A stretch of DNA of 64,000 nucleotides from Tomocerus qinae (lineage: Eukaryota; Arthropoda; Collembola; Entomobryomorpha; Tomoceridae), in the NCBI GenBank assembly GCA_020055645.1, contig CM034546.1, forward strand, positions 41,664,001 through 41,728,000. Direction: 5' to 3'. Both the position numbers and the translations under genes were made by a program. The stretch's first letter is position 1. Every line of letters starts with the position of its first letter. Below, one piece after another: positions 5,894-55,465 of the stretch. Under the pieces are notes generated by a model. It was not told the origin of the DNA. It did no database searches and saw only the letters and a list, made by a program, of their open reading frames with translations.

Positions 5894-7749
5894 ACCAAAA
5901 AATGTAAAGAATAATTCATACCAAGTAGTCCTTAACACAGCAGGTGGAACCTTTGCTTAATTGTGGGGAACCTAAAGAAACCTCCAACATTCGGATATAG
6001 GAGTTTGGATAGTCCTGTCGAATTCACAAATACTAATGGTTTGAATTATTGTGTCAAGTAGTGAACTAAGCATACAACCTGTGTTAGATGTTGTAACTTT
6101 AATTTGCAAGTATTATTGTTTGTTTGCCTGGCATATATGAGCGAAGACACATTTAACACTCAGTCGTCGATTTTGGCATATTATGTGCTTTTTTGACGTT
6201 TATGGTCACAAATCTGAAGTGAGCTTACGTCTTTCAGTATTATCGATTTATCCTGACACCTAGATGTTGAATTATTACTTTTACTATGGCCATATGGCCG
6301 CCCAAAATGGTCAACAAAATCACATTTTTTAGACGTGAAATTCTCAACGTCGGAGCTAATTGAGTGACAAGGCACCCTGGGATATAATTGAATGGTGCCT
6401 TTATATGATTTAAAACATTTAATGTGCTTCTCCGCTCAATCACCTCCGGCCAGCCTTCAGAGCACGGAATGAGAAATTCTCGCCAAAAATAAGTACCCCA
6501 AATACTGTAGAAAAATGATTTACCTTTACATAATGATCTTTTCAGTAAGAAATCTTCAAATCAGCTAAGAACCAATGCCGATAGCTAATAATTTAGCACT
6601 GTTGTGTGTCTTTCTCACTATATTTGTCAACGCATTCATTTTTTTCCAATTTTAATTTTACTATTTTATTCTAATATAACTTTTTATTTTTATTTCTTAC
6701 AGTTTTTAATTATTTTTATTTTTATATTTTATTATTATTATTATTTGTTATTTCTGTTTTATTTATCTCTGTCGTGACGAAGTAATTAATACTCAACTGC
6801 AAAAGAGATTTCCTTTGCCCGAGTCACATATTAATGTTAATTTATTAATTCATTATTTTTTAATCATATACACAGGAATTTCATTTAATGTTGTCACAAA
6901 AAATATTTATGCTCGACGACAATAGTATGCCCAATAAATACAAATGATTTTAATCAAAATATTATAAGGTATCATTTGCAGTCATTTACATGTACATCAT
7001 TCATTCATTGTCACATAAAACAGTGCAATGGAAGGCAAAATTCGTCTCAATCAATCAATAACCTTGAAAGCTATGTTTGTACTTGTTCAAGCGGGAGGAG
7101 TGAACTGCGTAGCGTAAATGATGACTGAAAGTTAACTGAAGAAAGTGAAAGCAGAAATACTTTCAACTTTGTGATTTGTAAGTTGTTTTTGTATTTTGTA
7201 TTCTATTTAGTAAGTTAACTGAGTTAACGTGTAACTTTTAAATGTTTCAAGTTTCTCAGAAATAGTATTATTTAAATTGTATTTAACTTTTTGTGTATAT
7301 CCATTTCGTCAATCTACAGGTTTATTGCAGCTGAACACTGAATCACTCATAATCTAAAATATCAGTTAGTCATAATCGGGAGTTCTGAAGTCAGAAGTAA
7401 GTCAAAATTTCAAAGTAAGTTATGCCCATCAGAACCAAAAGTGTCGTAGTCGGCTAAAAATAAATTTCTGGGGGGCTTAATTTCCATTGATTGTAGAAAA
7501 ATAAACTACCGGTTCTGAATGGTTAATTTTGTAAAACTAATAAAAATTTAATTTATTTAGGTATGGATTACTTATCCAGAAAACTGTAGACTTTATTCTA
7601 TTACCAATTACAGAATTATTCTACTGACTTCTAATGTCTGAAGACCGAATGAATAAATCTGCTCCTAGTTGAACTGAAAAGGAAGATATATTGTATGTGT
7701 ATGATGTTGTAAGCCAGTAGCAGAAAAACAAAATAATTGGGTTTTCCAA
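5894..7749. other. Tropomyosin 3' flank and intergenic DNA
   Basis: Contains the presumed 3' UTR of tropomyosin followed by AT-rich intergenic sequence with a T-rich run near 6650-6780. Several AATAAA-like sites occur, but none can be assigned with certainty. I see no gene. Confidence 0.45.
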
Positions 7750-10700
7750 ATGGAGAACATTCCGTGTTTCTTGTGTTTCCAATCAATTAAGGATAATAAT
7801 ACTATAGAGTTGGACCCAAAATTTAGTGATAGGCGATACAAAGAAAAGTTATTCCATTGCTGCAGTCGTCTGTTGGGTGTCAAAATTGAAAAGTCTTGCA
7901 ATTTAAAGTATTCTGCAATCAGCTGTTCTCCGTTTTGTTTTAATTGCTTTGAGTCTTCAGAAAAATTGTTGCAAATCGAATACCAAATAGAAACTAGCAA
8001 AACTAAAGACGACTTAGAGAATTACATCGCCAAATTCACCAGTGACATTTTGCGATTCAGGTTGGCTGTGTTTGCCAAAGAGATTGATTTCGAAAGCGAA
8101 GATAATGACGATATTGATGATGAGTACACCTATCAATCCTCATGTGGTTTCCAATCAAATGATTTAAGATCTTCGTTGCCTACGCCCAATATTGCACCAT
8201 CATCGTCTTTGTTAGTAATTAATTCTATTGGAGTAAAAGATGAAGCTGTAAAGGATGAACTCATTATTGACGAATATTTTGAGGAAGATGATTGCGGTGA
8301 CTCAACGGCGTTTCCGACGATGTCTATTCCAGAACTCAGAGTTGTCTTAGAAAGTAAGAAAATTAATTTACAATGACGCATCCTTCAAAAAATTGACAAA
8401 CGAATGTTTAAAATAATTATTGTTTACGTTACAAATTGAATTAGCCCTATATAATAATGTTTTAATGAAACAGAAAACCATGCCAAACTTAAAAAGGTCA
8501 AAGCCAAATATGCAGTGACTTTTTCATAATTTTCATTCACATTTGTTGTATTTTCCGTTACAAAATATTTACCCAGCATCTTTTATTATTCGGAAAGTTG
8601 TAATGTAGTAATTATTTTTTTATTGTCGTAGCTTGGCTTCAAAAACATTTTTAAACTGGATAATTTAATGATTTTCAATTTTTGCTCTAAATTCTACGCC
8701 TAGGTTGTAAAAGCTGCTGTCGTTCATGTTAGAAATGAATTTCATGATCAGTATAAAATAGATAAATTAAATTATAGGCAATCCAGTTTATGTTTGCGAT
8801 GCGAAAGTTTCCTCTCGTAAGCATTGAAGGACACTTCTTAATAAAATTGGTTGATTACGATTACCTATACTATTTCACCGAATTTTGATATGATTTGTCA
8901 TTTGTTTTTTTCCATTAGGATTACAGTTTGATTCCAATGGAAAAGTAATACTTCCGTTGGAAAGTTTTACAAAACGAAAAGCTGCAATTGTTGCAAGGTC
9001 GTCTTTGCTTCAAAATGTATCGGAAGACAATCCATTACAAATTTCGTGGTATGTATTTATTTTACAGCCAACAATAAGATCAATGTTTGCAATATTTAAA
9101 TATGTATAGGTAGTACTTTTAAATTTCAAATTCGTATTTGATTTTTGTATTGTTGAAACTGAAAATTTTAATAATGTTTGCCAGTTTCAGTGATGGCGAT
9201 CCAGAATTTATCAGCGGAGATTTGGAATTTGATTCTGATGAATACGAAGACAATAGTGGATCTCCGGACGTATCACATGAGTATCGAAAAACAAATTTGA
9301 AAACGTCTAAAAATAATAGTAATTCCATCACGAAAACGAAACCCTCTCGTTTAAAGAGAAAATATCACAGGAATGTAACGAAGAAATATTGTTTCAAGAA
9401 GCCGTGTGTTGAAAAACGCCAGGTATTTACCTTTATGCGTAAAGAAAGAAAGAAATTGAAATGTTCCATTTGCTCAGAATCGTACAACTTGACTTGGGAT
9501 CTTGATTGTCATTCGAATGAATCAGGCCACGTTAATGAACGCAATTGTAAATGTTCTCTGTGTGGTAAATCATACTACAATCAAGATGATTTGAAGTGGC
9601 ACCAGCGTGTATGCACATACTCCAATAGACGATGCAAACATTGCGCCAAGATATTAATATTTCCTTCGATCTCCAAATACCGCCTGCATATTGAGAATCA
9701 TAAAAAAAGATCAGAAGCCCAATTAAAATCAAAACGATGTATTCCCAATCGTAACAGGCTTGAATATTCCAATAAATATAAATGTGCGGTTTGTTCATCT
9801 CTATTTTCAGCTATCAAAGCGTTCCATGCACATGCCAAGAAAGAAGGTCACGTTAACACTCCTTTATTTTCATGTGAAAAATGCCACAAAAAATTTTACC
9901 GCCCGATGGATGTGAAAAGACACGACCATTATATTCACCAGACTATTCTCCAAGCATGTAAAATCTGCAACAAGGAATTTACCACTCGGATAATGTACCA
10001 CAGCCATAAAATGTGGCACAAAACAAAAGAAGACGGCCAAGGTATGTCCGTATTCGAAGAGCCACGTAAATGCGACTTATGCGATGGCGTATTTTACGGT
10101 ACAGCAAAATTGACTCGTCACAAAAAGAAACATGAAAAAGGATATCCATTTCAGTGCAACATTTGCTTTTTATTATACAAAACTGAAAAAACATTGAGTA
10201 ATCACATGGAATCACATCAAGGAGTTACTACAAAAAGGACTATCGAGTGCGACTCTTGCGACCAGAAGTTTAGTCTTCTAAGTGAATTCATTGCTCATAA
10301 AATAACTGACCATGGATTCCACTCACCGTTCATTTGTAAACATTGTCGAGAGTCATTTAAATCTAGAAGGGAGCTAAACACTCACCTTAAAAATGTTCAC
10401 TCTGAAAATCCCAATAATCAAAAATTTAATGAAAATTGTGAATTTTGTGGAAAACTTTATAAAACCCATACAAGCTTACAACTTCATACGTTGACCCACT
10501 TAAATATTCCTAAAGAATCTATGACAAAAATTAAAAGCAAATCGAAGGAAAGGGGAAGTCACCAATGTGCACAGTGTGGCAAGATTTTTTTCTATTCTCA
10601 CGGACTGACTGATCATTGGAACAAAATGCATTCACCTGATGCACTCAAGAATAGAGTTACCTGCAATATTTGTGGAAAAGTATTAGCCAATCAAAGGTAT

Positions 10701-10904
10701 TTCATTAAACACATGTCAATACACGAAAAGAAATTCATCTGTGAAATATGCGGAAGAGGCTTTAGTGAAAACTACTCTCTTCAAGGTCATATTAAAAGGA
10801 TTCATGAACAAAATAAAACACCCAGGAAATCTTATACAAGAACGATGTACCCAAAACCAAGATGTGATAAAGTTAGCTATATTGATCCTAATATTGTATT
10901 TTAG
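7750..10904 (+). CDS. ZAD-like C2H2 zinc-finger protein, 14 fingers
   Basis: Probable nuclear DNA-binding regulator. Exons inferred: 7750-8353, an optional 39-nt micro-exon 8778-8816, 8919-9048, and 9185-10904 (acceptor could also be 9191). All junctions are GT/AG and phase-compatible; total about 830 aa. The N-terminus has Cys6-x2-Cys9 and Cys63-x2-Cys66, the spacing of the ZAD dimerisation module common in insect zinc-finger proteins. An acidic linker follows (SEDNDDIDDEY; DEYFEEDDCGD). The last exon carries a basic stretch and then 14 C2H2 or C2HC fingers in a row, from KCSICSESY to FICEICGRGF. Linkers are irregular rather than TGEKP, as in ZAD proteins. The first ATG, at 7750, just precedes the first Cys pair. 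Because the micro-exon is a multiple of three it can be skipped without changing frame. DNA target unknown. Confidence 0.82.
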
Positions 10905-17144: not shown

Positions 17145-20100
17145 TTACAAAGGAACATTTACAAACAATTTGTCTGACGGTTTGCTTTTTTCTATTGCCA
17201 AAGTATCGATTTTATTGTCCATTAGACTTTTGAGGTAGTTTTTGATTATGCCAAATGAGGGCCTTTGACTGGTATCGATATCCCAGCTTTTTTTCATTAC
17301 AAAATTGTACCTACAGCACAAGAATATAAATATTTGAAATACATACTTAAATAACGTAGTAGTCGTAATATTAGAATATCCAATAATTAACTATATTTGT
17401 TTGGAGAATGCCATTTTTATTTTTGTTTTAAACTAAGAAGCCAAGAATTTAATTGCCAAGATAGTAACTGGTGAAATGTATTTAAGTTGTTATCAATTTC
17501 CAATTAATAGGAACAACTTACAGTCCATGAGAACAGAGGATTGGTTTTGTTAAACGCAACCCAGCAGATAACTTTACAATGAATTTAGAATTCCATGTTT
17601 CCTTGGGAAATGGAATATCACCCAAGGAGTAGATTTCCCAGATTGTCACCCCATATGACCAAACGTCGCTTTGAATTGAAAACTGCAAGTGTTTTAAACT
17701 TTCAATAGCCATCCACCGAAACGGTAGCGGAACCTTTAAGTTATAATATAAAATGAACAGGAAAAAAACATATTTTTCATAATTAAGAAGAATGGAATTA
17801 AACCAACGCTAACAAATATAAGTGTAATTCAAAATGTTTATTTTAGTTATTCTAGAATTAACCTTTTTTCGGCGAATATAATTATTTTCTTTATACAATT
17901 GAAAATGAAGTCCAAAGTCAGAAAGTTTTGCAATTTTATCCTCAGTTAGAAGAACATTTTTGGTTGCCAAATTTGCGTGAACGATGTTTTTCAATGTTAA
18001 GTATTCCATGCCACATGCAATTTGATAGGACCATTGTAACAAGTCATTTGGTGTTATTATTGTGTTGTCTTCAAGGCTAATGAAAGTTAATACATTTTTA
18101 AATTTATTTTTAGTCTCATTTTAGCTTTAAATAAGAACGAGGAGCCCATTTTAATTATATCAGTTTATAGGCATGTATTAAGATTTACAAATTTATTGGT
18201 ATATACATTTTACAAGTAAATTACAGGTCAGAAAAAATGGTGATTAGTTGACTTACATGTTAACATAACGAGGATCACTTTCGCTGACAAAATTGTCCTT
18301 ATTGTTTAGCAAATGACGCTGTAGGTCTCCTAATGAGCAAACCTCATAAACGACACTGAGACTCCCTGTTGAAAATAATTATAGTTATATGGTCGGTCAG
18401 ATTGTTTATCATGCCTATTGTTATTGTATCTTTTATACCATATTTATATATTTAAAATATCTGAATAGCATAAATTAGCATTCCCGTATAGTAAAGATAA
18501 GGAAAAAGTATATTTGATGTTGAGTAATTTACGCATTTTGATGTTTTCTGTGCAAGCACCGAGTAACTTTACAATGTTTTCATGCTCTCCTAAGTACATC
18601 ATGGTTTTTAATTCAGTTAGTAGTGCTTTGAAATAGAAAATGTCCGCCGTTGCTGGTTTGGTCGCCTTCACAGCCACCTCATTTAAATTATACATAGCTC
18701 TAAATACAATTCCGTTACGACCACTTCCTAGTAGTATGATTTTGTTATCTGCAAAATATCAAAATATATTTGTATATTTATTATTTCCAATTTTGATTGA
18801 TTATCTTTCTTATGACCTTTCGATTTATATCATCAATTTTTATTTAACTATATTAGTGCAGTAATATTTTTTACCCATGGAAATACTCCCTATTGGTATT
18901 TCAAATTCTTTATTGTATGGCATATAAGCAATCTTATCTTGAGTTATTTGATCATTTACATTCCATATTTCATTGTTACCATTGAGGAACTCCTTAATTT
19001 CTTCATCTGATAACTCCCGTAGATATTCCTATACAAGGAAACAAAAGTTAGGAGCATTCATAATAATATTTTCCCAGTTTAGAATAACTTGTCTTGCTAT
19101 GAACGAGGAAGTACTTGTATTTTTTGTTGTCTCCAGTAGTACAAGGATAAAACCATCAGTAATAAAATAGCAACTATAGCCACAACTATGACAATAAAAG
19201 TTGTTGTTTTCATAGGCTCTGTAGTAAATAGTAATAATCATATAAAATTGTTAAATCAGTTTTATTTATGAAGTATAGTATGTGATAACTTGGGGAATTA
19301 CTAACCCTTTACTTTAACAATGAACTTAACAGAGTCGTTTCCTAGCCTATTCCATGCATGACACTCGTAGACTCCTGAAATAGACTCATCAACGTTCGCA
19401 AATTCTAAGATTTCATCTTTTTCTGATGTATATGTAGATCTTAATATTAATGTTGTAGTATTTTCCTGGAAAAATAAAAGTTAATTGATCATGTTAAAAG
19501 TATTAAAAATTACAACACATTTTCATGTAAAATGATAAAATCTCATTTTTTCAAATATTGCTTCACTATTTCCCCTACCGAAATTACTCGTGTCCAAGAC
19601 ATTACTGGTAATGGCTCTCCCTTAGCTTTGCAAACCAGTCGACCTTCTCTTCCTTTGATTAGCGTAACTTCGAGGCCATTCTTTTCAATGACTGGAGGGG
19701 AAAGGTCTAAAAATAACAAACTATACACGTACAAGTAATTTATACACCTATTTATATTTTATCTACATATTTATTTATATTTATAATTTTTATGTTGAAT
19801 GAGGATATAATTATTAACATTTAACAGCAAATTTCCTGGAAGCATTAAACAGGATTGGTTTGTCCACAAGGGAAACAGAGCAAGTCAACTTCACTGCATT
19901 TATTGGTAGAAACAAGTTTATTCCGGATAAAATATTGAAATCTAAGATTCTCCGTCTTTCCGTTTTTCCTCCTTTGTCTTCTTTATAATATTCTACAAAG
20001 TACAATAAAAAATATTGTTGTGAATTGCTATAAAAATAAGCTTCCTATTAATAAAATGATTTTTTGGTTAAAAATAATTTTTTTAAAGATTTTAATAGCA

Positions 20101-23100
20101 CAGTAAAATTTCCCACGCAATATTTCTTGATTGATTTTTGCGTAATTAAATTTTTTTGTAAAAAATGAGTTATTAATTCCCCACTTGTATCAAGGTAGAC
20201 TATTGATCCATTTGAATATGTCAAGTAGTAGTGGAATGTATCAGCAAACAAAAATTTCACAGCTTCACAGAAAAAATAGGATGATTCGTTGAAGTATAAT
20301 GTTTCAGAAACCTCGTCCATATTAATAAGTTCTTCCTTGGGGGCTTCCTCGGCGGATTTATCTATGACAAAACCATATTTAGGTTTAAAATGTACAATAA
20401 ACTTTTGTTTTAAATAGTAAGTTTACATTTTATTAGTCTCAATCCAGTGAAGAACTCAAAAACGAAAGATTTTGAATGGTTTAAAACCGCACACTCCACC
20501 AGACCATTATAATGATAATTTTGCAGACTTGTACAAGACGAAAAATTTGCTGATGGACAAAATCCTTCGGGGAGGTCCGAGTAGAAGTATAAATCTTTCT
20601 TCTTTTTGCAGGTTGGGTCATCGAAGCAATAACGTAGCAAGTTGCAATCATTTGTATTTGCGCATCGTAGGCTAGCAATAGTTTTCTGTTCTGTCTCCGA
20701 AATACAGTCCATTTCGCCAGCTCTGCTATTGAATACTATTTTGGGAGGATCTGCACCGTACACAAAAAATTATTTCAAAGCAGTTGAAATTTTGTTATTT
20801 TTTTCTTGTGAATTAAATGACAATCGACAATTTTAAATGCTTTACCTATAAAATGGTATTGTAAAACTTCCGTATGGACGCCTTTTATGTCATAGCAGTT
20901 TACCGATGAAACTTCGCTGTTATTTAGGCTACCAATTATTACTTCTTCGCCTGAATTAAGTGATATGTCGGCATTGCTGTTGACTTTCAGGGTCGTTAAT
21001 AAATTTCTTAGCGTGATTGAGGTAAACGTTCCGTCATCATTACACCGAAGATGAATATATTCTCCAAATGGCAAAAATTTTGTCCGTAAATTCACATCAT
21101 TCTGAGCTGCGAAAGAGACAAACAGTTATTGTAATTAAACAAGATAGTATTTAGGTGTTAATTGAGTTTTCTATGCATAATATTTACTGCAGGAATGTTT
21201 AGCATCTGAAAATATGAAAAAGTGCTCACTTCTTTTGTTGTCATCGCTATCCACTTGGAAACTCAAACTATTGGTAGGCATACGACAAATATATGATCCT
21301 ACATTTGGTTTACTGGATAGTAAGAATCCTCTATTAGGATGATAGGGAGCTAATATCTGCTGAAGATTTGTAGAATTTCGAAAATATAACTCTACAAGAA
21401 TTCTTGGATCTGTTGTTGGGCATGGAATGACATTATTTTCTATTCTTGTGGATACATTTTTAAAATGACTTTCTTCTGCTTCTGTTTTCATAGTAGGAAA
21501 ATAATTATTATAATATTTGTAATATTTTAATTTAATAGGGAAAATAGGAAACATGTATAAAAATAGATTGTTTTTGCATCTTACCAGGAACAAATATACG
21601 AGCTGATGAAAACAAGGAGTTGTTATAATGCTTGCAAACGATTTCAAAGCTTGCAAGTTTGGGAAATTGGTTTACTACATGAAGTATGTACATTAACTTT
21701 CCGTTTTTGATGGCAGTCTTGGGATTCCAAACACGGAACGGGCGCTCAGTCTTAATTGATTAAAATATCTTTTTAATTGTCCTAATTAGGTTTTAATCTT
21801 AAATAGACATACATAAGCCAAATTAGCATATATACACATTGTATTTCTGTATAGGGGTAACTTGACACTATTGAAATATACTGTACAATATATTACTATA
21901 ATATGATACTATATCCACACCAATTTAATTTCGGTGAGGGGAAAGACATCATCAATATTTAAGGTTGGATATAGAAGCAGAAAATATTAATTTCTCCCCA
22001 CGAAGAATTAAAAACGTGTCCGAGGTATTCATCTTCCTCTGCTACTTTGTGAAATGACTTGTAGACTAACCCATTCTCGAAATTTTAGGACGTATAATAT
22101 AATAATATATCTAAATGGGAATTAATTCCCGCATGGTATCCATTCACCATTGAAAGCAATAAAATCTAAATTAGGTTCTACCCTTTCAAGATAAATATGT
22201 GATATCAACAGTAATTGATTACACCGTTAATATAGCTTAGGACAGATTTGATATCGGAAAGTCAAAGAATTTGTGGCACTGTGGGAAAAAAAGGAATACG
22301 TATTTTGGTAGCTCATAATATTAGGAAAAAACAACTTTCAGGGAAAAAATCATTTTTGCCCCTGTCAGGGGTAGGGGTGCCGTAAAGAGCAAAATCCGAA
22401 TAATTTCTAGCAAGAGAACCAATTGACCGTTTTAAAAATTATGTCCCTTGATACTCTAGAGAAGGTTTTAATAAAAAAAACTTCGAAAAATTCGAATTTA
22501 AAAAAATAAATAACATTTTGAAAAAATTAATTTTTGAAGAAAATTTTTTTTTCGAAAATTCTGCAGGAATCAAAAGAAGCTTCAAAAAATGTATAAAGCT
22601 GTCAAATATTGTTTTTTATTAAATCTTACTATGTAATGCACCTCTGCGTGGTAAAACAGAGAGAATGTGGCATAACTTAATGTGTACAAGCCTTATCAAT
22701 CAATATAATATCATTTGTGTGTAATTATATACAAAATTATAAGTAACACCTTGTAAGCTTACATAATGCATTGGCTAGTGCTTACGTTATACACAAAGAG
22801 ATGTCCAGATAAGAGCCTACCTAATGTATGGTAAAAATTTTTTCCTATAATAATTTTTTTTATTTTTCACGGTATAATAATGTTATAACGAATTATGTTA
22901 GTCATGTATCTGATGTTTATTGACAAAACAGATGCAATAATTTGAGAAATAAATGCAGTTGTGCAAAGCTAATGTACTAGCATTTATATTAGACAACTGA
23001 TTTAATTAACAAGTTATCGAAACTGGGAGATGTTATATTTGTATTGGGTTATTTTATGAGCTCTTTCTTTTGATTCCTGCAGAATTTTCGAAAAGCCTAT

Positions 23101-23374
23101 AGGTTAGTTTACTTACTTGATATCCTGTGTACTCCCATTTGATGGGATATGGAGCTACACATTTCAATGTTAATTGATACCCAACTCTTCCTATAAGTGT
23201 TAAGTTTTTCTTATCGAGAATTGTCCACGCTCGGTTTTCAACTGTTATGACCGGATCTTCTGTGTCGGGTAACGAAGAAATGCTCTGAATATAAAGGGAT
23301 ATAGTGATTAATGCCCATGTCCTATAACAATATGCCCAGGTCATTTTGCCTGTTTCCAGTTTCAATATTTTCAT
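17145..23374 (-). CDS. Pvr/VEGFR-like receptor tyrosine kinase with a degenerate catalytic loop
   Basis: Single-pass membrane receptor of the PDGF/VEGF-receptor class. Exons (minus strand, 5' to 3'): 23374-23117, 21750-21585, 21481-21230, 21106-20846, 20750-20427, 20361-20102, 20044-19819, 19706-19579, 19465-19306, 19218-19115, 19028-18875, 18748-18533, 18365-18257, 18076-17863, 17733-17522, 17310-17145; about 1069 aa. Junctions are GT/AG and in phase. The 57-nt intron 20101-20045 has a weak donor and is tentative. Features in order: signal peptide (a second Met at about 23344 is equally likely), about seven Ig-like domains (last with SGVYECHAWNRLGND), TM FIVIVVAIVAILLLMVLSL, juxtamembrane MPYNKEFEIP, glycine loop GSGRNGIV, Lys in EVAVKA, hinge VVYEVCSLGDL, DFG intact, FRWMAIESL and a W...QRPSF C-lobe. 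The catalytic HRDLAARN motif reads HANLATKN (codons 17971-17979), so the catalytic Asp is Asn and the Arg is Ala. The kinase insert is short. Probably a pseudokinase or inactive paralogue. Confidence 0.85.
22552..23096. repeat. Inverted repeat pair in kinase intron 1
   Basis: CGAAAATTCTGCAGGAATCA at about 22553 recurs inverted at about 23070-23096, just inside the donor of kinase exon 1. Arms are about 27 bp with about 490 bp between. It may mark a small foldback element. There is no target duplication I can see. Confidence 0.45.
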
Positions 23375-26102: not shown

Positions 26103-28232
26103 TCATCTTAATTTCATGTAATTGAATTTTAACATACTTTTCAATTTCCAGAAAATTGTTCTCCACGTTAGTTTGTAATGGATGTAAATTTCAGTTAAGA
26201 ACACTGCTAATGTCACTGGAATAGTCTTTGCAAAGTATATAAAGACTACTCTGAGGTTTGACGACATTGTGAACTTCTGTCGCAGCCGTTCGTTATAATT
26301 TTCTATATCCTTTAATTTTCCATACGTAAATTTGCCGAAAAGCTGAAAAAAATCGATCTCATTTGCTGAAGTGTATAGCCCAGCTTCTATGAACACTTGA
26401 AATGTGTCTTTAAATTCTTCCATGTAACACCCTTCGAATAAAATGGAATATGGAACTGCATCCAAAAAATCTTCCGAAAACTCTTCGCATTTCGCAGGAT
26501 CCCATATACTAAGCGAAAAAGCCTCGATGTATCTTCTGTCTGCCTCTACAATGCTTTTTTGTTGGCTCCCTACTACGTTCAATATGGCCGGTAGCAACTT
26601 TTGAGTCTCGTCATCCAAAAAATTAGGTAGTTCATACGCCAAAACGAAACCTATTATGGAAATAATTGCATCAATCTGGGTATCATTTAGGTGGTCAATA
26701 AAATTGTCAACGATTATAACCCATGCCGTTGAAACATACATAAGTGCACCGCTCTCTTTGAAACGAGGATAATAATCATAAAATACTCTATTGATGAAGT
26801 CCGAGTTCAGACTAGTTTTATAATTAACTTTAGAAAATGCGTTTGGTAGAGTTGTTATTGGCAGATTATATTTTTTGAACATCTTTTCTAAATTCACATT
26901 TTCATTGATATAAGTTTCATATGACTTCCCTTCCTTAAACTCTACAGGGTATTTGTACTGTTTTGAAATAACCTCTGGAAATATCATTTTCGGCTCCTCT
27001 TCAAAAACTGTGATATTGCTGGTCATTTTAGATTCATAGATCCATCCAAAGAATAAGGACGCCAAAGAAAATCCTAAAATGACAGGTCTCGATATTAGAG
27101 TATGATCTTGACGCATTAACAAGGACAACACGTCGTAAGGTGCGTAAAGATTGATCTTTTTGTTTGGAGTTTTCCACAAGTCGTATATTATTATGTAGCC
27201 CGTCATTGTGAGAAACAAAGTCAATAAGAGAGCCCATGTTGGCCCGTCTAGAGTTTCTGTAGTGGCCCACTTTGCTGAATAAATTTTATTGTCAGATGAC
27301 GATATTATTTGACAATATCCAAACGACGTCCTTTTTTCCTGCAGCAGAAAAATTGTTGTCAAATGGATTTGTATCGATATGTTGTAAAGTAGCTTGCTTT
27401 TTCTTTCTGCGCGAATTGTTCCACATGGCAGAGTGAGATAATCAAAGTTGTTTCTCTCTTTGTCTTCCTGGTCTTCAGCAGTGATAAATTCTTGTGTGAA
27501 ATTCAAAGATTCAGACAATTGAGATATCATTAGTATTGATCCTGTTAATGATATTGCTGTTGCATCATAGTTCCCGTAAAACGTCTTTATCACACCAAAA
27601 AATGATGTCGGTGGATTCTTTCTGTATTTTGTTGGTTTTGAAACTTGGATATATATTTTATTCCCGTTCAAATTGATACGTTTTCTATAGTGTTTAATCT
27701 GAAGAGGATCTTCCATGGACGAACTGATTTCATTGATTTCATCACCAAATATAGAGATTGTATGCATCCCATTTTCTGATGTTGTCGACAGATATATTGC
27801 GGAATTGAATTTCCTGATCCCTCCTAAAAATTGATGTGTGGGATCCTTCAATTGGCCAAAAATAAAAATAAAGATACTTTGTGGACGAAAAGGCCGCCAT
27901 GAATTTTGAAGCGATGGGAGGATGTTGTCGTAAGAAGGAGGTTGAAAAATTATATTGATGTCGCAGATTTCTCTTGATGCAAGAAAAGCCAAATATTCAT
28001 ATGGAGCTTCCTTTTTCCATTTTTTCTCATTTGGTTCTGCTTTAGTCGTCCATGGCTGACCATACTGGTTTTGGAGTAAAATTATATCGAGATCGTAAGA
28101 TCCCAAAACTGTTGTGAAATAAGTCAAATGAAAATCACAGTGTTTTTGTAGCCGCAAATCGAAGAAAGTTGCCTCAAGATGGCTTAAGAAGAACAGTTGG
28201 ATGGTAAAAAACACTAAAAAGGGATAAATCAT
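26103..28232 (-). CDS. Divergent ionotropic receptor (IR-like) 1, 709 aa
   Basis: Intronless ligand-gated-channel-like protein, probably in sensory neuron membranes. The ATG at 28232 is chosen because the upstream in-frame codon (TTG, 28241) is not a start and all four paralogues share this Met. Order: signal peptide (IYPFLVFFTIQLFFLSHLEA); extracellular N-terminal/S1 region; TM1 about 331-352 (WALLLTLFLTMTGYIIIY); pore-like segment with DVLSLLMRQD; M3 ILGFSLASLFFGWIYESKMT, resembling the IR/iGluR M3 end; a long S2 with DRRYIEAFSLSIWDP; and a last TM about 670-690 (VFIYFAKTIPVTLAVFL). This iGluR-like layout and tandem, intronless organisation are typical of divergent IRs. Among the four copies it is the most diverged, with one extra residue (SDFINRVF) and its own C-terminus (SMLKFNYMKLR). 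Ligand unknown. Family call is from architecture and motif resemblance only. Confidence 0.8.
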   Translation of the reverse strand: MIYPFLVFFTIQLFFLSHLEATFFDLRLQKHCDFHLTYFTTVLGSYDLDIILLQNQYGQPWTTKAEPNEKKWKKEAPYEYLAFLASREICDINIIFQPPSYDNILPSLQNSWRPFRPQSIFIFIFGQLKDPTHQFLGGIRKFNSAIYLSTTSENGMHTISIFGDEINEISSSMEDPLQIKHYRKRINLNGNKIYIQVSKPTKYRKNPPTSFFGVIKTFYGNYDATAISLTGSILMISQLSESLNFTQEFITAEDQEDKERNNFDYLTLPCGTIRAERKSKLLYNISIQIHLTTIFLLQEKRTSFGYCQIISSSDNKIYSAKWATTETLDGPTWALLLTLFLTMTGYIIIYDLWKTPNKKINLYAPYDVLSLLMRQDHTLISRPVILGFSLASLFFGWIYESKMTSNITVFEEEPKMIFPEVISKQYKYPVEFKEGKSYETYINENVNLEKMFKKYNLPITTLPNAFSKVNYKTSLNSDFINRVFYDYYPRFKESGALMYVSTAWVIIVDNFIDHLNDTQIDAIISIIGFVLAYELPNFLDDETQKLLPAILNVVGSQQKSIVEADRRYIEAFSLSIWDPAKCEEFSEDFLDAVPYSILFEGCYMEEFKDTFQVFIEAGLYTSANEIDFFQLFGKFTYGKLKDIENYNERLRQKFTMSSNLRVVFIYFAKTIPVTLAVFLTEIYIHYKLTWRTIFWKLKSMLKFNYMKLR

Positions 28233-29080
28233 TTTGACCAAACTGATAAATAAATATTAGGTACTTGTCCTATTCCGTAGTACCAATTACGAGTGTCTAT
28301 TAAAGTGTACTTAATCCGTCATTTTGTACTAACCATGTCACCCGGAAGAATATAAATGTAAATGTGGTCGATAAATCTATACTACCTCTAATGTATATTG
28401 GGTAATTTTATAGATTAGGTTTCAAAGTAAGATTCCAGGGATTCATTTGTTGCTTATAGAAAATAATCCGACTTGGGCAGACTATGTCAACGAAGTGTTA
28501 AATTTCAAATAGATTAAATGGAATCATAAATATTTAGTATTGATCAAAAAAATGTAATTAAGTCGCCTTTCAAGTCGTTGATCGTAGAAACCAAGCGACA
28601 TCAAAAATAACAAGCAACTGTATTTCTATAAAAGCTTATATTCAATCAATTGTAATGACCTATACTATGTAAAACCTTTGTCATGCTCTATGGGCTTATG
28701 CTCGACAAGTGCATTTAAATAAAATCTAATCAATAAAAGCTTATATACTATACCATACGATACTTTATTATTATCACTACTAATGACAAAAAACAATTAT
28801 ATTCAGGCTAAACTCTAACATTATTTAAATAAATGATTCTAAGAAACATGAAATATTTAGCGTGTTCATCAACAAACACTTAACCACATCGCCTTTTATG
28901 TCGTATAACCTAGCAACATCAGTAACCAAGCAGCATAATATAAAACAACAAGCAACTGTACCTCGTGGCAGCCTAGATAAACGTTGTAGTAAAGAAGCGG
29001 TAATATTATTTTTTAAATTGCTGTCAAATTGTCATCGATTGTAAAACGGTCAAATTGTCTATGATTGTAAAACTGTCTAT
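28233..29080. other. 5' flank of IR1, duplicated block
   Basis: Paralogous to the 5' flanks of the other three IR genes (38304-38990, 49221-49980, 54809-55450), sharing CACCCGGAAGAATATAAATG and the CAAGCAACTGTA region. A few units of the 26-bp minisatellite (CAAATTGTCTATGATTGTAA) occur at about 29025-29080. It presumably contains the IR1 promoter. TCAGTTTGG, an Inr-like match, lies just upstream of the ATG in three copies (TCAGCTTGG in the third), but this is only suggestive. Confidence 0.6.
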
Positions 29081-35857: not shown

Positions 35858-36244
35858 TATCAAGGTGTCCATGTGCCGTAAATGCCGTACCGTAAATTAT
35901 TTTTTATGTTTTTAGCTTGTTTTTACATAAATTGATGTGGGAAGTGAGAAATAACACGCTAAAAGTGCTTTTATACACCAATGTTGTGTATCAACGGCAT
36001 TATATGATTTATATGCCACTTATGGCTGAAAAGCCTCGAAAAGTGAAAACTCCTTTTATAACTTATGAGAATTGTCATTTATTATAAAATGATCGAATTT
36101 ATATTTTTTGTCCTTCAATTAGTTAAATATTACTATTAAACTTCCTACGCCGTGTCTTATGCATTTTACGGCATTTACGGCAATTACAGCATTTACGGCA
36201 AGCGGCATTTGGAAATAATTTACGGCATGCCAACTTTATTCTTT
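35858..36244. mobile_element. 387-bp element that truncates and re-codes IR2
   Basis: IR 3'-end sequence (TTCAATTTCCTGAAAACG, 35821) breaks after GTTTGT at 35857 and resumes at 36245 with GTTTGTAATGGATAG. The empty sites are in IR1, IR3 and IR4. A short duplication GTTTGT (35852-35857 and 36245-36250) flanks it. The interior has inverted TACGGCATTTACGGCA motifs and both ends carry CCGTAAATTATTT in inverse orientation. Confidence 0.82.
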
Positions 36245-38303
36245 GTTTGTAATGGATAGAGATTTCAATTAAGAACACTGCTAATGTCACTGGGATGGTC
36301 TTTGCAAAGTATATAAAGACTACTCTGAGGTTTGACGACATTGTGAACTTTTGTGGCAGCCGTTCGTTATAATATTCTATGGCCTTTAATTTTTCAGCAG
36401 AAAATTTGAAGAAAAGGAGAAAAAAATCGATCTGATTTGCTGAAGTGTATAACCCAGCTTCTGTAAACATTTGAAATATGTCTTTAAAGTCTTCCATATA
36501 ACAACCGTTGAATAAAATGGAGTATGGAACTGGATCCAAAAGATCTTCGGAAAACTCTTCGCATTTCACAGGATCCCATATACTAAGCGATAAAGCCTCG
36601 ATGTATCTTCTGTCTGCCTCTACAATGCTTTTTTGTTGGTTCCCTACTACATTCAATATGGCAGGTAGTAACATTTGAGTCTCGTCATCCATAAAGTTAG
36701 GTAGTTCATTTGCCAAAATGAAACTTATTATTGAAATACTTGCATCTATCTGGGTATTATGTAGGTAACCAATAATATTATCAATGATAAAAGTCACTGC
36801 CGTTGAAACATACATAAGTACACCGCTCTCTTTAAAACGAGGATAATAATCATAAAATACTTTTTTTGAAACGGAATTAAAACTGCTTTTATAATTAACT
36901 TTGGCTAATGCCTTTGGTAGAGCGGCTATGGGCAGATTATATTTTTTAAACATTTTTTCTAAATTTATATTTTCATGAATGTAGGTTTCATCTGATTTCC
37001 CTTCCATTAATTCCACAGGGTATTTGTACTGCTTTGAAATAACCTCTGGAAATGTCATTTTTGGTTTCTCTTCAAAAACTGTTATATTGCTGGTCATTTT
37101 AGATTCATATATCCATCCAAAGAATAAGGACGCCAATGAAAATCCTAGAATGACAGGTCTCGATATTGGAGTGTGGTCTTGACGCATTAGCAAGGACAGC
37201 ACTTCATAGGGTGCGTAAAAATTGATATTTTTCTTTGGAGTTTTCCACAAGTCGTATATTATTATGTAGCTCGTCATTGTGAGAAACAAAGTTAATAAAA
37301 GAGTCCATGTTAGACCGTCTAAAGTTTTCGTGGTGGCCCACTTTACTGAATAAATTTTCTCGTCGGATGACGAAATGATTTGACAATATCCAAACGACGT
37401 CCTTTTTTCTTGGAGCAGGACAATTGTTGTCAAATGTCTTTGTATCGATATGTTGTAAAGTAGCTTGCTTTTTCTTTCTGCGTGAATTGTTCCACATGGT
37501 TGGCTGAGATGATCCAAGTTGTTTCTCTCTTCGTCTTCCTGGTCTTCAGCAGTGATGAATTCTTGTGTGAAATTCAAAGATTCAGACAATTGTGATATCA
37601 TTATTATGAACCCTGATGAAGATATTGCTGTTACATCATAGTTGTCGTAAATCGTCTTAATGACACCAAAATATGATGTCGGTGACTTTCGTCTGTACTT
37701 TAATGGGCTTGAAACTTGGATATATATTTTATTCCCGTCCATATCGGTACGTTTTCTATGATGTTTAATCAGAAGAGGATTTTCCAAAGACGAACTGATT
37801 TCATTGATTTCGTCACCAAATATAGACATTGTATACATCCCATTTTCTGATGTTGTCGACAGATATATTGCGGAATTGAATTTCCTGATCCCTCCTAAAA
37901 ATAGAATTGTGGGATCCTTCAATTGGCCAAAAATAAAAATAAAGATACTTTGTTGACGGAAGGGCCGCCATGAATTTTGAAGTGATGAGAGGATGTTGTC
38001 GTAAGAAGGAGGTTGAAAAATTATATTGATGTCGCAGATTTCTCTTGATGCAAGAAATGTCAAATATTCATACGGAGCTTCCTTTTTCCATTTTTTCTCA
38101 TTTGGTTCTGTTTGAGTCGTCCATGGTTGACCATACTGGTTTTGGCGTAAAATTATATCGAGATCGTAAGATCCCAAAACTGTTGTGAAATAAGTCAAAT
38201 GAAAATCACAATATTTTTGTAGCCGCAGATCGAAAAAAATTGCCTCAAGATGGCTTAGGAATAATAGTTGAATCGTTAAAAACACTGAAAAGGAATAAAT
38301 CAT
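36123..38303 (-). CDS. Divergent ionotropic receptor (IR-like) 2, 726 aa, transposon-derived C-terminus
   Basis: Paralogue of IR1 with the same layout: signal peptide, N-terminal/S1 region, TM1 (WTLLLTLFLTMTSYIIIY), pore-like segment, M3 (GFSLASLFFGWIYESKMT), S2, last TM (VVFIYFAKTIPVTLAVFL). The ATG at 38303 matches the paralogues. A GTG-to-ATG change gives an extra in-frame ATG at 38309. After IHYK the protein departs from the family: the usual short tail (SWRKMFRKLK) is replaced by about 40 residues rich in Cys, Arg and Lys (AACRKCCNCRKCRKMHK) encoded by the inserted element 35858-36244, with the stop inside it. The true tail codons lie stranded at about 35815-35857. The frame is otherwise open, so the gene may still make a receptor with a novel cytoplasmic tail, or be on its way to a pseudogene. 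Confidence 0.78.
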   Translation of the reverse strand: MIYSFSVFLTIQLLFLSHLEAIFFDLRLQKYCDFHLTYFTTVLGSYDLDIILRQNQYGQPWTTQTEPNEKKWKKEAPYEYLTFLASREICDINIIFQPPSYDNILSSLQNSWRPFRQQSIFIFIFGQLKDPTILFLGGIRKFNSAIYLSTTSENGMYTMSIFGDEINEISSSLENPLLIKHHRKRTDMDGNKIYIQVSSPLKYRRKSPTSYFGVIKTIYDNYDVTAISSSGFIIMISQLSESLNFTQEFITAEDQEDEERNNLDHLSQPCGTIHAERKSKLLYNISIQRHLTTIVLLQEKRTSFGYCQIISSSDEKIYSVKWATTKTLDGLTWTLLLTLFLTMTSYIIIYDLWKTPKKNINFYAPYEVLSLLMRQDHTPISRPVILGFSLASLFFGWIYESKMTSNITVFEEKPKMTFPEVISKQYKYPVELMEGKSDETYIHENINLEKMFKKYNLPIAALPKALAKVNYKSSFNSVSKKVFYDYYPRFKESGVLMYVSTAVTFIIDNIIGYLHNTQIDASISIISFILANELPNFMDDETQMLLPAILNVVGNQQKSIVEADRRYIEALSLSIWDPVKCEEFSEDLLDPVPYSILFNGCYMEDFKDIFQMFTEAGLYTSANQIDFFLLFFKFSAEKLKAIEYYNERLPQKFTMSSNLRVVFIYFAKTIPVTLAVFLIEISIHYKQRIKLACRKLFPNAACRKCCNCRKCRKMHKTRRRKFNSNI

Positions 38304-39022
38304 TTTCATCAAACTGATAAATGAATATTAAATACTTGTCCTAGTTCGTGTTACCAGTTGAGAGTGTCTATTATAGTGTACCCAAACCGTCAGTTTGTAC
38401 TAACCATGGCACCCGGAAGAATGTAAATCTAAAGCAAAAACATTAGGGATTAATTTATTACTTCAGGAAATTAAATCAGATTGGGCACATTATGTCCAAG
38501 AAGGGTTAAATTTAAAGTAGATCTAATGCTTGGAACTATGAAATATTTAATGTTCATCAAAGAAAATGTAATTGTGTTGCCTTTTAAGTCGTTGAACGTA
38601 GAAACCAAGCAACATATAAAATAACAAGCAACTGAAACTCTATAAAGGCTTACTTATAATATACTTAATAACTACATACTGTATACACAGGCTGTTTTAT
38701 TATTATCACTTTGCTGTTTATGACAAAACTGATATTTAAAATCAGGCTTCAGCGATGTCACTCTAACAGTGAATAAATAAATTATTCTCAGAATCATGAA
38801 ATATTTAGCGTGTTCATCAACAAACACGTCGTCTTTCAAGTCATGGAACGTAGAACAGTAACCAAGCAACATATAAAACAACAAGCAACTGTATCTTTTG
38901 GCAGCGGTGGTAAACGTTGTAATGAAGCATCGGTCAAATTGTACAAACATACAAACATAAGGGATTGATGTTTTTAATAAACCGTAACAAACGGGTGTAG
39001 AGTGAATATCAGAGGTTTTAAC
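38304..39022. other. 5' flank of IR2, duplicated block
   Basis: Closely matches 54809-55465. Small open frames in it differ between the two copies only at amino-acid-changing positions, so I regard them as non-coding. Ends at the TA target of the next element. Confidence 0.55.
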
Positions 39023-43150: not shown

Positions 43151-43749
43151 CATTTCGCGTGCGCCAGTTTACGTTTATACTTTAGTCATGATTCTGCTAA
43201 TGGTTGCTGGATGCCTACCTTTCTAAATTTGCCAAATTTTACTGGGAGCCTAGTAAATTAATAATAATAACAAACTTACATCCCATTTGATAGTCAGGGT
43301 TACAACCATATGGAATAGTGAAATTAATACGAACTGCTAGATGCTATGGAAACTGATTTCATAATATTTATGGATACCTAATTCTTATACATACTGTGTT
43401 TCCATTTTTTATTATATTATTATATCACCCTGTTTCGCCTTACTACCGCCACCTTACAATTTTCCTATTACAGTGTAAATAATCCATCAGTTTGTACTAA
43501 CCATGTGGCTCTACAAATGCTGAGGTATTTGTTCAATGCCACCTTACTATCAACACTATTAACGATTAATTGGCAAAACACATTTATACCCAGTTTTCCT
43601 TTTAACAGTCAATAATCAAATTGTTTTCGGAATCATGCAATATTTATCTCGTTTACTAGCGAATACTTATAGTACTAGTATAGTCACGTCAGCTTAAAAG
43701 TCGTTGAACGTAATAGTTACCAAGCAACATAATATAAAACAACCAACAA
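43151..43749. other. Duplicated intergenic block
   Basis: Colinear with 55629-56265: GCTGGATGCCTACCTTTCTA, CACCCTGTTTCGCCTTACTA, AACGTAATAGTTAC. No gene seen. Confidence 0.55.
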
Positions 43750-44558
43750 CTGTCAAATTGTCTATGATTGTAAAACTGTGAAATTGTTTATTATTGTAAA
43801 ACTGTGAAATTGTTTATTATTGTAAAACTGTTCAATTGTTGATGATTGTAAAAGTGTCAAATTGTTGATGATTGTAAAAGTGTCAAATTGTTGATGATTG
43901 TAAAACTGTCAATTTGTTGATGATTGTAAAAGTGTCAAATTGTTGATGATTGTAAAACTGTCAAATTGTTGATGATTGTAAAACTGTCAAATTGTTGATG
44001 ATTGTAAAACTGTCAAATTGTTGATGATTGTAAAACTGTCAAATTGTTGATGATTGTAAAACTGTCAAATTGTTGATGATTGTAAAACTGTCAAATTGTT
44101 GATGATTGTAAAACTGTTCAATTGTTGATGATTGTAAAACTGTCAATTTGTTGATGATTGTAAAACTGTCAATTTGTTGATGATTGTAAAACTGTCAATT
44201 TGTTGATGATTGTAAAACTGTCAATTTGTTGATGATTGTAAAACTGTCAAATTGTTGATGATTGTAAAACTGTCAAATTGTTGATGATTGTAAAACTGTC
44301 AAATTGTTGATGATTGTAAAACTGTCAAATTGTTGATGATTATAAAACTGTCAAATTGTTGATGATTGTAAAACTGTCAAATTGTTGATGATTGTAAAAC
44401 TGTCAAATTGTTGATGATTGTAAAACTGTCAAATTGTTGATGATTGTAAAACTGTCAAATTGTTGATGATTGTAAAACTGTCAAATTGTTGATAATTGTA
44501 AAACTGTCAAATTGTTGATGATTGTAAAACTGTCAAATTGTCGATGATTGTAGAACTG
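43750..44558. repeat. 26-bp minisatellite, about 31 units
   Basis: Consensus starts TGTCAAATTGTTGATGATTG and ends TAAAAC. Units vary mainly in the central GTTGATGA/GTCTATGA/GTTTATTA position, with runs of identical variants. The same array occurs as 2-3 units near 29025 and 49930 and about 13 units at 56266-56613, always at the equivalent place in the receptor blocks. Confidence 0.95.
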
Positions 44559-47120
44559 TCTATGAGGGATTGTATTTAGGTTGTAAGGATTTATTCTATG
44601 ACCCGTTCCTAAACACAAGACTCACAAAGATTTCTGTTAGTAGTTGTAGCTAAATAGCTATTTGAATTTAGTGCTATAAATTAAATAAGTTTACACAAAG
44701 ATAACGCAATTATATGTCGTTTTAAGTCAATATTAACTTAATATTTTTTTCCAGACACTCTTTTTGGCATACTTTATTGGCATATTAAATTTACTGAACA
44801 ACAAAATAATTAGTTTTAATATTTAATCACAAAATGGGTAATGTGTGTTTTGCAGTGTCAATGGAAATAATTAATTCAGTCATCGAAAGTTGGAAACGAC
44901 TCAGGGAAACTTGGGTTTGGGGGAAACTTTGGAGGAAAATGGCATTCCGCCGGCTTTGAATATATATGACGAACCTAACCTAATAACCTGTCAATTGTTT
45001 ATTTTATTTGGGTTAGGTTTGTTCTATCCGCAAAATATGGACATTCCTAATAATTATTCCGATCCTCGCTAACTGTTTCTTAATTTTATTTCAAATTTTT
45101 GAAAAAACGGAAGGTAATTTTTGAAATGAAACGAACAATTGGAGAGAATAAGATAGAACTTTATAAATAAGAGTAGCTAGAACGTTTTGAAACCATTTCA
45201 TATTAGCGATCCAGAGCAGACTGGAAATTGGAATATTAATTCATTTGTGGAATAACCATAGCTGCTCATAGAATACCTGATCTACTATCTTACCCCACTT
45301 TACCCTTTTAGATGTACTAGTGGGTTTTTATGCCAACAGGTGATTTTTTTAAATTTATGTCATAAAGTATGCCAATTAGGGGTTGGATCCTTGCAACCAT
45401 AACGGATAACTACAGTCTGCACAATCTATGTGAGTAAATTCCCCAGGCTCCTTATACATGTAACATAATTTCCAAAGCACCCTACTCTTTAAGTGTAAAA
45501 TTCTGACTTTCAAAAAATCATTATACAATTTATATGAAACCGAGCATTACGAAAATGCTCATTTTGGTTTCTGACTATAAGATCAGTAACAGTTTCAAAT
45601 TAATCGATTGGTATTTAAAACTTGTGCAGATAATATTTTATTATTATAGTGACTTCAACATGTTTCTAGCACATTGTACATATGCTAGGTTTCAGCTAGC
45701 CTATCATAATCTTATAAGTAGTTTAATTCCACAACACCCATTATTGTTATTGTCAATTTTAGCTACTAGCTTGGTATTAACAACTCAAATGTTCAGAAAA
45801 TGTTAGGAAACTAAAGGTTTATGTTCACAAAAAATCTAGTGAATTATTGTGTGTGCCTAAGTGTCGGTATGGGGAAATTGAGACTGGTGAGAAAACGTGT
45901 AAGTCGTAAAGCTAATTTTATTTACAGAAGTTGAGCCAATGAAGAGCAAAATGCAAGCAAGTGAAATGACAGGTAGGTAGCAGTATAAATAATATTGCAT
46001 TGACCTTAACATTCATAGAATCAGCTTAAAGTTAATCGATGGTTCATACATTCAAATACCTGCCGGCTTCCAGAGACTAATTATTTAATTATGTAGTCTG
46101 GAGGTCGGCTCTAAGTCATACATTCACATCTTAGTAGGTCAAAAAGTCACACTATATGCACTTAATCGAGGACACCAAAAAATCATACGATCTAGGAATA
46201 GAGACAGGAATCTAAAACTAATTGACCATATGAATAATAATGCTTGGGATTTGACAGTTATAGTAATTAATGATGTTGATGTTTACCATTACCTAAAATA
46301 GGTTGCGGTAACTTATATTGTAATTAACTAACCGAAGTGATATTGACCAGGAATAACAGTAACAAATAACTTCAAAAATAATGTTTAAAAATCCTGATGC
46401 GACCCTTTGGGGTCACTTTTTTCGAATTTGTAAAGAGCTTAGATAATAGTAAAGATCTAAGGTGACTTGACTATAGAGGTGGCTATGCGTTGTAATTATT
46501 TATCGGATTATATGCATGGTTAAATCTTGGTGGTGTATAAAAAATGGCGTGATAAGCTTGTGCCAACGTATAATACATTCTGTTTCATTATTGTCGAAGG
46601 TTTTTATGTAAGTTAGCTGGCATTAAAAATTCAAAAGACCGTAATCAAGAAAATAGCTCAGAAATCTTTTCATTATACAAACAATCATGTCTCTAATCTA
46701 CAAATGAGTTCATATTATATGCTCCAATCATATTATACCACCTTCCATACAGTATATAAGCAGACAGAATAAATTGGATATCATATCCATTAAATTAATT
46801 ATATTATTATATTAGATCTATTAAAATTATAACATTTTATAATAGGTATGCCTGAGAGGTAAAAAGATTCATCTCGCTCAATTCCGTTTTAATTGCCAAC
46901 AAACATAGTTAGGTTGGCATTTAATCGGGTCATATTTGTACTCTGGTATTGGAGCTATTAAAGTCTCCAGGATTCAGGTTTCAAAACACTTCCAACAATT
47001 TGTATCTATCCATAGTCCAGTCCTAAAATTTATGGCGCCAACTACCTCCTGTTGAAGAGATTTCCGGATTAAAAAGATTTTTTCATTACTCACCTATAAG
47101 ATGATGTGATAACATGGTTT
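44559..47120. other. 3' flank of IR3, duplicated block
   Basis: Colinear with 29081-32110 and 49980-52700. No convincing gene: the frame around 44890-45072 has counterparts at 29463 and 50356 but none begins with ATG. Contains a solo LTR at 45751-46256. Confidence 0.55.
45751..46256. mobile_element. Solo LTR, 506 bp
   Basis: Begins TGTCAATTTT and ends ATTTGACA (TG...CA), flanked by the 5-bp duplication GTTAT (45746-45750 and 46257-46261). The equivalent positions in the other blocks (ATTGTTATAGCAATTAATG near 30370; ATTGTTATAGTAATTAATG near 51840) are empty. A TATA-like GTATAAATAAT occurs near 45982. Most likely left by recombination of a Gypsy- or BEL-type element. Confidence 0.85.
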
Positions 47121-54808: not shown

Positions 54809-55465
54809 TTTCACCAAACTGATAAATGAATATTAAATACTTGTCCTAGTTCGTGTTACCATTTGAGAGTGTCTATTTTAGAGTAGCCAATCTGTCAGTT
54901 TGTACTAACCATGTTACCCGGAACAGTATAAATGTAAAACATTACAGGGATTAATTTATTACTTCAGGAAATTAAATCAGATTGGGCACATTATGTCCAA
55001 GAAGTGTTAAATTTAAAGTAGATCTACTGCTTGGAACTATGAAATATTTAATGTTCATCAAAGAAAATGTAATTATGTTGCCTTTTAATTCGTTGAACGT
55101 AGAAACCAAGCAAAATATAAAATAACAAGCAACTGAAACTCTATAAAGGCTTACTTATAATAAACTTAATAACTACATAGTGTATACACAGGCTGCCTTA
55201 TTATTATCACTTTGCTGTTTATGACAAAACTGATATTTAAACTCAGGCTTCAGCGATATCACTCTAACAGTGAATAAATAAATTATTCTCAGAATCATGA
55301 AATATTTAGCGTGTTCATCAACAAACACGTCGCCTTTCAAGTCATGGAACGTAGAACAGTAACCAAGCAACATATAAAACAACAAGCAACTGTATCTATT
55401 GGCAGCGGTAATAAACGTTGTAATGAAGCATCGGTCAAATTGTACAAACATGCCAACATAAGGAA
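54809..55465. other. 5' flank of IR4, duplicated block
   Basis: Near-identical to 38304-38990. Presumed promoter region; nothing else seen. Confidence 0.55.

Follow-up and report, generated by a model that had tools for sequence, protein, structure and literature searches.

Does a receptor tyrosine kinase gene that has kept its whole reading frame but altered its HRD motif encode a dead enzyme, and if so, what is it kept for? The question is raised by a gene on the minus strand of a 64,000-nucleotide stretch of the 334-Mb genome of the collembolan Tomocerus qinae (C1:41664001-41728000, hereafter the window). The first-pass annotation had described it as a Pvr/VEGFR-like receptor with HRD changed to HAN, and had proposed a maintained but catalytically dead protein, perhaps a decoy or co-receptor for an active Pvr.

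Manual splicing places the gene at 23374-17145, with 16 exons whose joined coding sequence of 3075 nt contains a single, terminal stop; the other two frames contain 81 and 76 stops. All 15 introns have GT..AG borders with agreeing phases, which bears out the earlier description of an open, in-phase frame across all exons. The length given at that time, 1069 aa, is not reproduced: the product is 1024 aa in our model, which takes the shorter of the alternative donors of exons 6 and 8 and in which the start methionine is uncertain. It is an Ig/transmembrane/tyrosine-kinase receptor without internal stops, in which Pfam recognizes a tyrosine kinase domain (PK_Tyr, E 1.9e-66) and Ig_3 (E 5.2e-11). 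Exon 1 (23117-23374) carries the start and a first Ig-like piece, and its hydropathy gives no strong signal-peptide peak; a short stretch ending its open frame is repeated in inverted orientation in intron 1 (about 22450-23100, from translated frames). The Cys-rich, divergent and presumably Ig-like ectodomain encoded by exons 2-6 (21750-21585, 21481-21230, 21106-20846, 20750-20427 and 20361-20185) gives no Pfam match over the cut-off, even among hits up to E<=10. Exons 7-9 (19992-19819, 19706-19579 and 19465-19306) complete the preceding domain and add a membrane-proximal Ig domain (residues 541-632), which is above the Pfam cut-off. They are followed by a transmembrane helix at about residues 638-660 (exon 10, 19115-19218) and a juxtamembrane segment that could be aligned with KIT (exon 11, 18875-19028). 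In the outer ectodomain the cysteines look paired, and 12 N-glycosylation sequons are present; the ectodomain matched only two of 60 kinase loci at E<0.01 (L030 and L013), although most of the locus stretches end not far upstream of the kinase exons.

The kinase is of the split type, its N-lobe lying in exon 12 (18533-18748), the hinge, alpha-D and a short insert in exon 13 (18257-18365), the catalytic loop and the start of the activation segment in exon 14, the P+1 loop, SDVW and the remaining C-lobe in exon 15 (17522-17733), and the C-lobe end (RPSF), a short C-tail and the stop in exon 16 (17145-17310). Its best single-stretch matches in the PDB are KIT (199 bits) and PDGFRA (197 bits), then CSF1R, FLT3 and VEGFR. 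An EGFR chain heads the list at 221 bits, with two kinase stretches that each score 105 bits. The short insert between alpha-D and alpha-E aligns with the insert of the KIT chains. By sequence similarity the gene can thus be classed as a PVR-like receptor (class III/V, PDGFR/VEGFR/KIT type). One classification, in the part of it available to us, recovers no PVR subgroup outside deuterostomes (PMC8662651), and our use of 'PVR-like' therefore rests on similarity and crustacean nomenclature.

The codons CAC GCA AAT TTG GCA ACC AAA AAT at 17979-17956, within exon 14 (18076-17863), confirm the reported loop HANLATKN, in which Asn stands at Asp863 and Lys at Arg867 and the Mg-binding Asn868 is kept. 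DFG (17919-17911), AIE (17709-17701) and VAVK (18677-18666) are also present as described. The glycine loop (GSGRNG, 18728-18711) had been called conserved, which holds for its three glycines but not for the Phe of GxGxFG: this position is Phe in 45, Tyr in three and Gly in one of 49 paralogue N-lobe rows, and Asn in the window gene. Compared with the same 49 rows, Lys747 of VAVK and the alpha-C Glu765 (within 18617-18600) are kept. Beyond the loop, DFG is followed by L-H-F where Ser is found in 62/62 paralogues (S885H) and Arg in 59/62 (R886F), and the P+1 loop reads PFRW, with the Trp kept in 61/61 paralogues; the activation-loop tyrosines 889 and 894 are present. The Asp of HRD is the catalytic base in kinases, and if a pseudokinase is defined by the loss of at least one of the VAIK Lys, the HRD Asp and the DFG Asp, the gene falls within the definition through Asp-to-Asn, with the Lys and DFG kept. 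Because of the Asn at the catalytic base and the changes just after DFG and at P+1, phosphotransfer should be absent or very low.

How exceptional this is depends on the relatives with which the gene is compared. A search of the genome with the window kinase domain gave 144 rows. Five of these are hits to the window gene, one (C2:31422711) is an HRD kinase and 21 are the second exons of genes that are split; the rest represent at least 117 other C-lobe loci. They come from the best 120 of 808 candidates scored (the best 115 in an earlier list), and strongly degenerate members could be absent. C1, with 42% of the genome, carries 111 of the loci listed (binomial p 2e-34), and 70 of these 111 lie within 50 kb of another, against a random mean of 8 and a maximum of 22 in 500. 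The nearest listed relative of the window gene is about 1.04 Mb away. A single dead receptor next to a single active Pvr was therefore too small a picture; the gene stands isolated and diverged in a family for which at least 117 other loci are listed. An exon-by-exon search for PDGF/VEGF domains, which can miss split or diverged ligands, had a single hit in the genome (C3:29399673, E 3.7e-4), and most of the family may therefore not serve PVF ligands.

The paralogues have two gene structures: a single C-lobe exon that begins a little upstream of the catalytic loop (class A), or an intron near the border of window exons 14 and 15 (class B, recognized by match ends and seen directly in five stretches). 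By its introns the window gene belongs to class B. We could read the loop at 98 of the at least 117 listed loci (19 of the 117 are outside the count, and several loci are near-identical copies, so that these are not 98 independent events). The Arg of HRD is present in none of them and the Asp in 97. Class A loops (n=57, from 61 rows minus L001-L003 and L006, which are other kinases with HRDLAARN or HGDLKPQN) comprise 48 HSD, 7 HAD and 2 HTD. Those of class B (n=20) comprise 19 HGD and 1 HAD, and one more class B locus on C4 brings the HGD paralogues to 20. A further 20 loops include 11 HSD, 4 HAD and one each of HVD, HMD, HLD, HFD and HVN. The last of these, HVNLAAR at C1:21803882-21804238 (L088, C1:21.80 Mb), is a second Asp-to-Asn loop and possibly an independent pseudokinase; a locus about 31 kb from it (L091) keeps HVD.

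The genome also encodes three other tyrosine kinases with HRDLAARN (L001-L003), and the loss of the Arg thus belongs to the PVR-like family and not to the genome. In the available part of a study of decapod PVRs (PMC11024359), the HRDLA site reads HGDLA in most, Lv-VEGFR2 excepted, which has HRDLA. On the sequences compared, it appears usual for arthropod PVRs to lack the HRD Arg, and HGD plausibly came first. The window gene, with HANLA ... PFRW, also departs from the published decapod motif HGDLA ... PxKW, which Lv-VEGFR2 shows not to be universal. The AIE in place of APE is similarly uninformative: EGFR reads ALE, and A-[ILV]-E is found in 52 of the 57 class A rows (the other five read WMSIE in four cases and WMAPE in one). 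Both the R-to-A change and AIE, which the first-pass annotation had taken as signs of inactivity, were thus discarded as family traits. Since both are common in the family, the only unusual change in the HRD triplet, judged against these paralogues, is Asp-to-Asn. 'HRD changed to HAN' thus merges a rare change, the Asp being absent from 1/98 paralogue loops, with an inherited one, the Arg being absent from 98/98. Paralogues that keep the Asp are present in the same genome, in 97 of the loops read.

The gene is also unusually divergent. When the C-lobe was aligned with those of 62 paralogues (five of class B and 57 of class A, including two short ones), 41 columns proved near-invariant (>=95% identical), and the window gene departs from eight of them (D863N, R867K, S885H, R886F, K896R, W904F, F934Y and G943K), compared to a maximum of three and a mean of 0.53 among the paralogues. 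It keeps the other 33, including SDVW, W931 and E910. Branch length alone does not yield eight departures, since L083, with a branch of 1.17 compared to 1.0 for the window gene, departs at only 3/39 columns and keeps HGD. The catalytic and activation segment does not hold significantly more than its share of the departures (6/20 columns versus 2/21, Fisher p 0.13), and part of the signal may therefore be plain divergence. One of the eight, R867K, is shared with L093 (HADLASK), in which the Asp is kept. In the tree, which omits the short rows L024 and L027, the window gene sits on a long branch of its own, in a tentative placement based on few columns; the nearest loci by path are L085, a class B gene with introns at the same place, and the HAD group L041/L043/L045. 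The closest C-lobe relative among those read is 58% identical (59-60% in the match lists), which rejects a young duplicate of one active Pvr. Among 22 close paralogue pairs, which exclude the window gene as it has no close pair, pooled dN/dS over the kinase C-lobe is 0.078, indicating purifying selection.

Other features of the window include four tandem single-exon frames on the minus strand (26106-28256, 36126-38327, 47124-49244 and 52712-54832; 707-734 aa), in DNA blocks that are 64-97% alike, which we take to resemble divergent ionotropic receptors; the first of them (26106-28256) gave no Pfam match at E<=10. On the plus strand, 7705-10904 holds adjoining frames of 223 aa (Cys-rich and by eye ZAD-like) and 593 aa (by eye with many C2H2 zinc fingers), the Cys-rich N-terminal piece having no Pfam match at E<=10, and 60187-63921 holds a 1245-aa frame without internal stops that by eye resembles a non-LTR retrotransposon polyprotein. 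A tandem array with a 26-bp unit covers at least 43592-44645 (45 register copies of a 300-nt reference).

Taking the gene itself, the explanation we favour, and consider reasonably probable, is that a full-length PVR-like receptor has become a pseudokinase, or a kinase of very low activity at most, whose fold is maintained and which acts as a dimer partner of competent paralogues. The change of Asp863 to Asn, on a background already without the HRD Arg, would have cost the kinase its catalysis, while selection would have kept the fold, with ATP/Mg presumably still bound through Lys747, Asn868, Asp881 and Lys867. Binding of ATP is plausible by analogy, because ATP is bound by HER3 and JAK JH2, both with Asn in place of Asp166, and Lys677 of JAK2, which replaces the tyrosine-kinase Arg and contacts ATP, matches Lys867 (PMC4718504, in the part available). 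Ligand-driven dimerization with catalytically competent paralogues may then occur as in HER3 or C. elegans FLOR-1, the role in the dimer being that of an allosteric activator or substrate scaffold or, as second choice, a ligand sink. Given that an ectodomain, a transmembrane helix and a kinase fold are kept among many kinases with the Asp, a dimer partner is what the gene would most simply be, and it probably signals in this way rather than as an enzyme. The plant non-RD receptor EFR can dispense with catalytic activity but requires phosphorylation of its activation loop (PMC8463890), and the window gene keeps the activation-loop tyrosines 889 and 894. The first-pass reading of a maintained catalytically dead receptor thus survives in its intact gene, lost Asp and kept nucleotide-binding residues, without the support it had drawn from the Arg and AIE, and on the sequence evidence we regard a maintained pseudokinase as likely.

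Not all observations point the same way. HER3 and JAK2 JH2 show weak residual activity with the very same Asn (PMC4718504, as far as its available part goes), which would count against a full pseudokinase, and the retention of the alpha-C Glu, lost in HER3, would likewise count against the explanation we favour. It could thus be argued that the receptor is a functional if weak kinase, in which Asn863 and Lys867 allow low phosphotransfer and ordinary but slow signalling; all nucleotide-binding residues are kept for this, and tyrosines 889 and 894 remain. However, the near-universal Asp of the paralogue loops, the further departures S885H, R886F and W904F at P+1, and the loss of the glycine-loop Phe make this rather unlikely. 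A simple misreading of GAT as AAT at the Asp codon, through a base-call or assembly error, needs only one base, yet it would leave seven other near-invariant departures in the same domain to be explained, and a second Asn case (HVN) exists elsewhere in the genome; we consider such an error hardly credible.

The long branch, the eight departures and the isolated position of the copy could all be expected of a gene on its way to loss, unexpressed or unselected, in which catalytic residues go first while the frame is still unbroken. Against this, 1024 codons without internal stop have persisted, as have 15 introns whose sites are usable and whose phases agree, together with 33/41 near-invariant columns, and a C-lobe identity of 58% to the nearest paralogue speaks for a long separate existence with an open frame. 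A long terminal branch combined with an open frame argues against long neutral decay, and loss in progress is improbable. A membrane decoy, or a soluble one if spliced otherwise, would sequester ligand with its ectodomain, and the kinase domain would be irrelevant to it. The ectodomain, transmembrane segment, sequons and pseudokinase domain would all suit such a protein, but an intracellular part that is open throughout and keeps so much of its C-lobe is unexpected in a pure decoy, and the single PDGF-domain match lends no special support to a PVF decoy; we think this quite improbable too.

The PVR-like family, where the Asp stands in 97/98 loops read and has been lost from at least one intact gene, would lend itself to the question of when, and for what reason, receptors cease to be enzymes. 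For arthropod PVRs, neither the absence of the HRD Arg nor an AIE is a sign that the kinase is dead; the sign to check for is a lost Asp. More speculatively, and with doubtful likelihood, PVR receptors may here have given rise to a large Arg-less kinase repertoire, mostly on one chromosome in tandem arrays and untied from PDGF/VEGF, with the window gene and the HVN gene as dedicated non-catalytic partners. Such a repertoire may, if the non-RD immune receptor kinases of plants are a guide, serve immune or other recognition.

Pseudokinase receptor tyrosine kinases are a known kind, and kinase-pseudokinase receptor pairs are known from few families (ErbB, KIN-16). We found neither a PVR pseudokinase in arthropods nor one inside a very large Arg-less PVR-like family in the open-licence PMC literature. 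The arthropod PVRs closest to hand, decapod PVR1/PVR2 (PMC11024359, again from the part available), share with the window gene an Ig ectodomain, a PDGFR/VEGFR/KIT-class kinase without the HRD Arg, and a kept DFG and activation-loop Tyr. Their HRD site reads HGDLA and this genome has HGD, HSD, HAD and others; the window gene differs from them in Asp-to-Asn, Arg867-to-Lys, PFRW and a very divergent ectodomain, and in having at least 117 other loci in its genome. HER3/ErbB3 is alike in its Asn for Asp166, kept DFG and loop Asn, predicted ATP binding and active relatives as possible dimer partners, but belongs to another receptor class and combines the Asn with loss of the alpha-C Glu, a combination not seen here since Glu765 is kept. 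JAK JH2 has the same Asn and a Lys at the Arg position (JAK2 Lys677, the Lys867 position here), but shares its chain with an active kinase in tandem, and its Gly loop is partly degraded and its activation loop short. In C. elegans, OLD-1 and FLOR-1 form a kinase-pseudokinase pair in one receptor family, FLOR-1 being the partner of OLD-1 (PMC10523662, in the part available). FLOR-1 resembles the window gene as a pseudokinase that lost its catalytic-loop Asp in a family with active members, whereas it has lost both the Asp and the Asn (HRALALRS), belongs to the C. elegans-specific KIN-16 family, and has a known partner and pathway.
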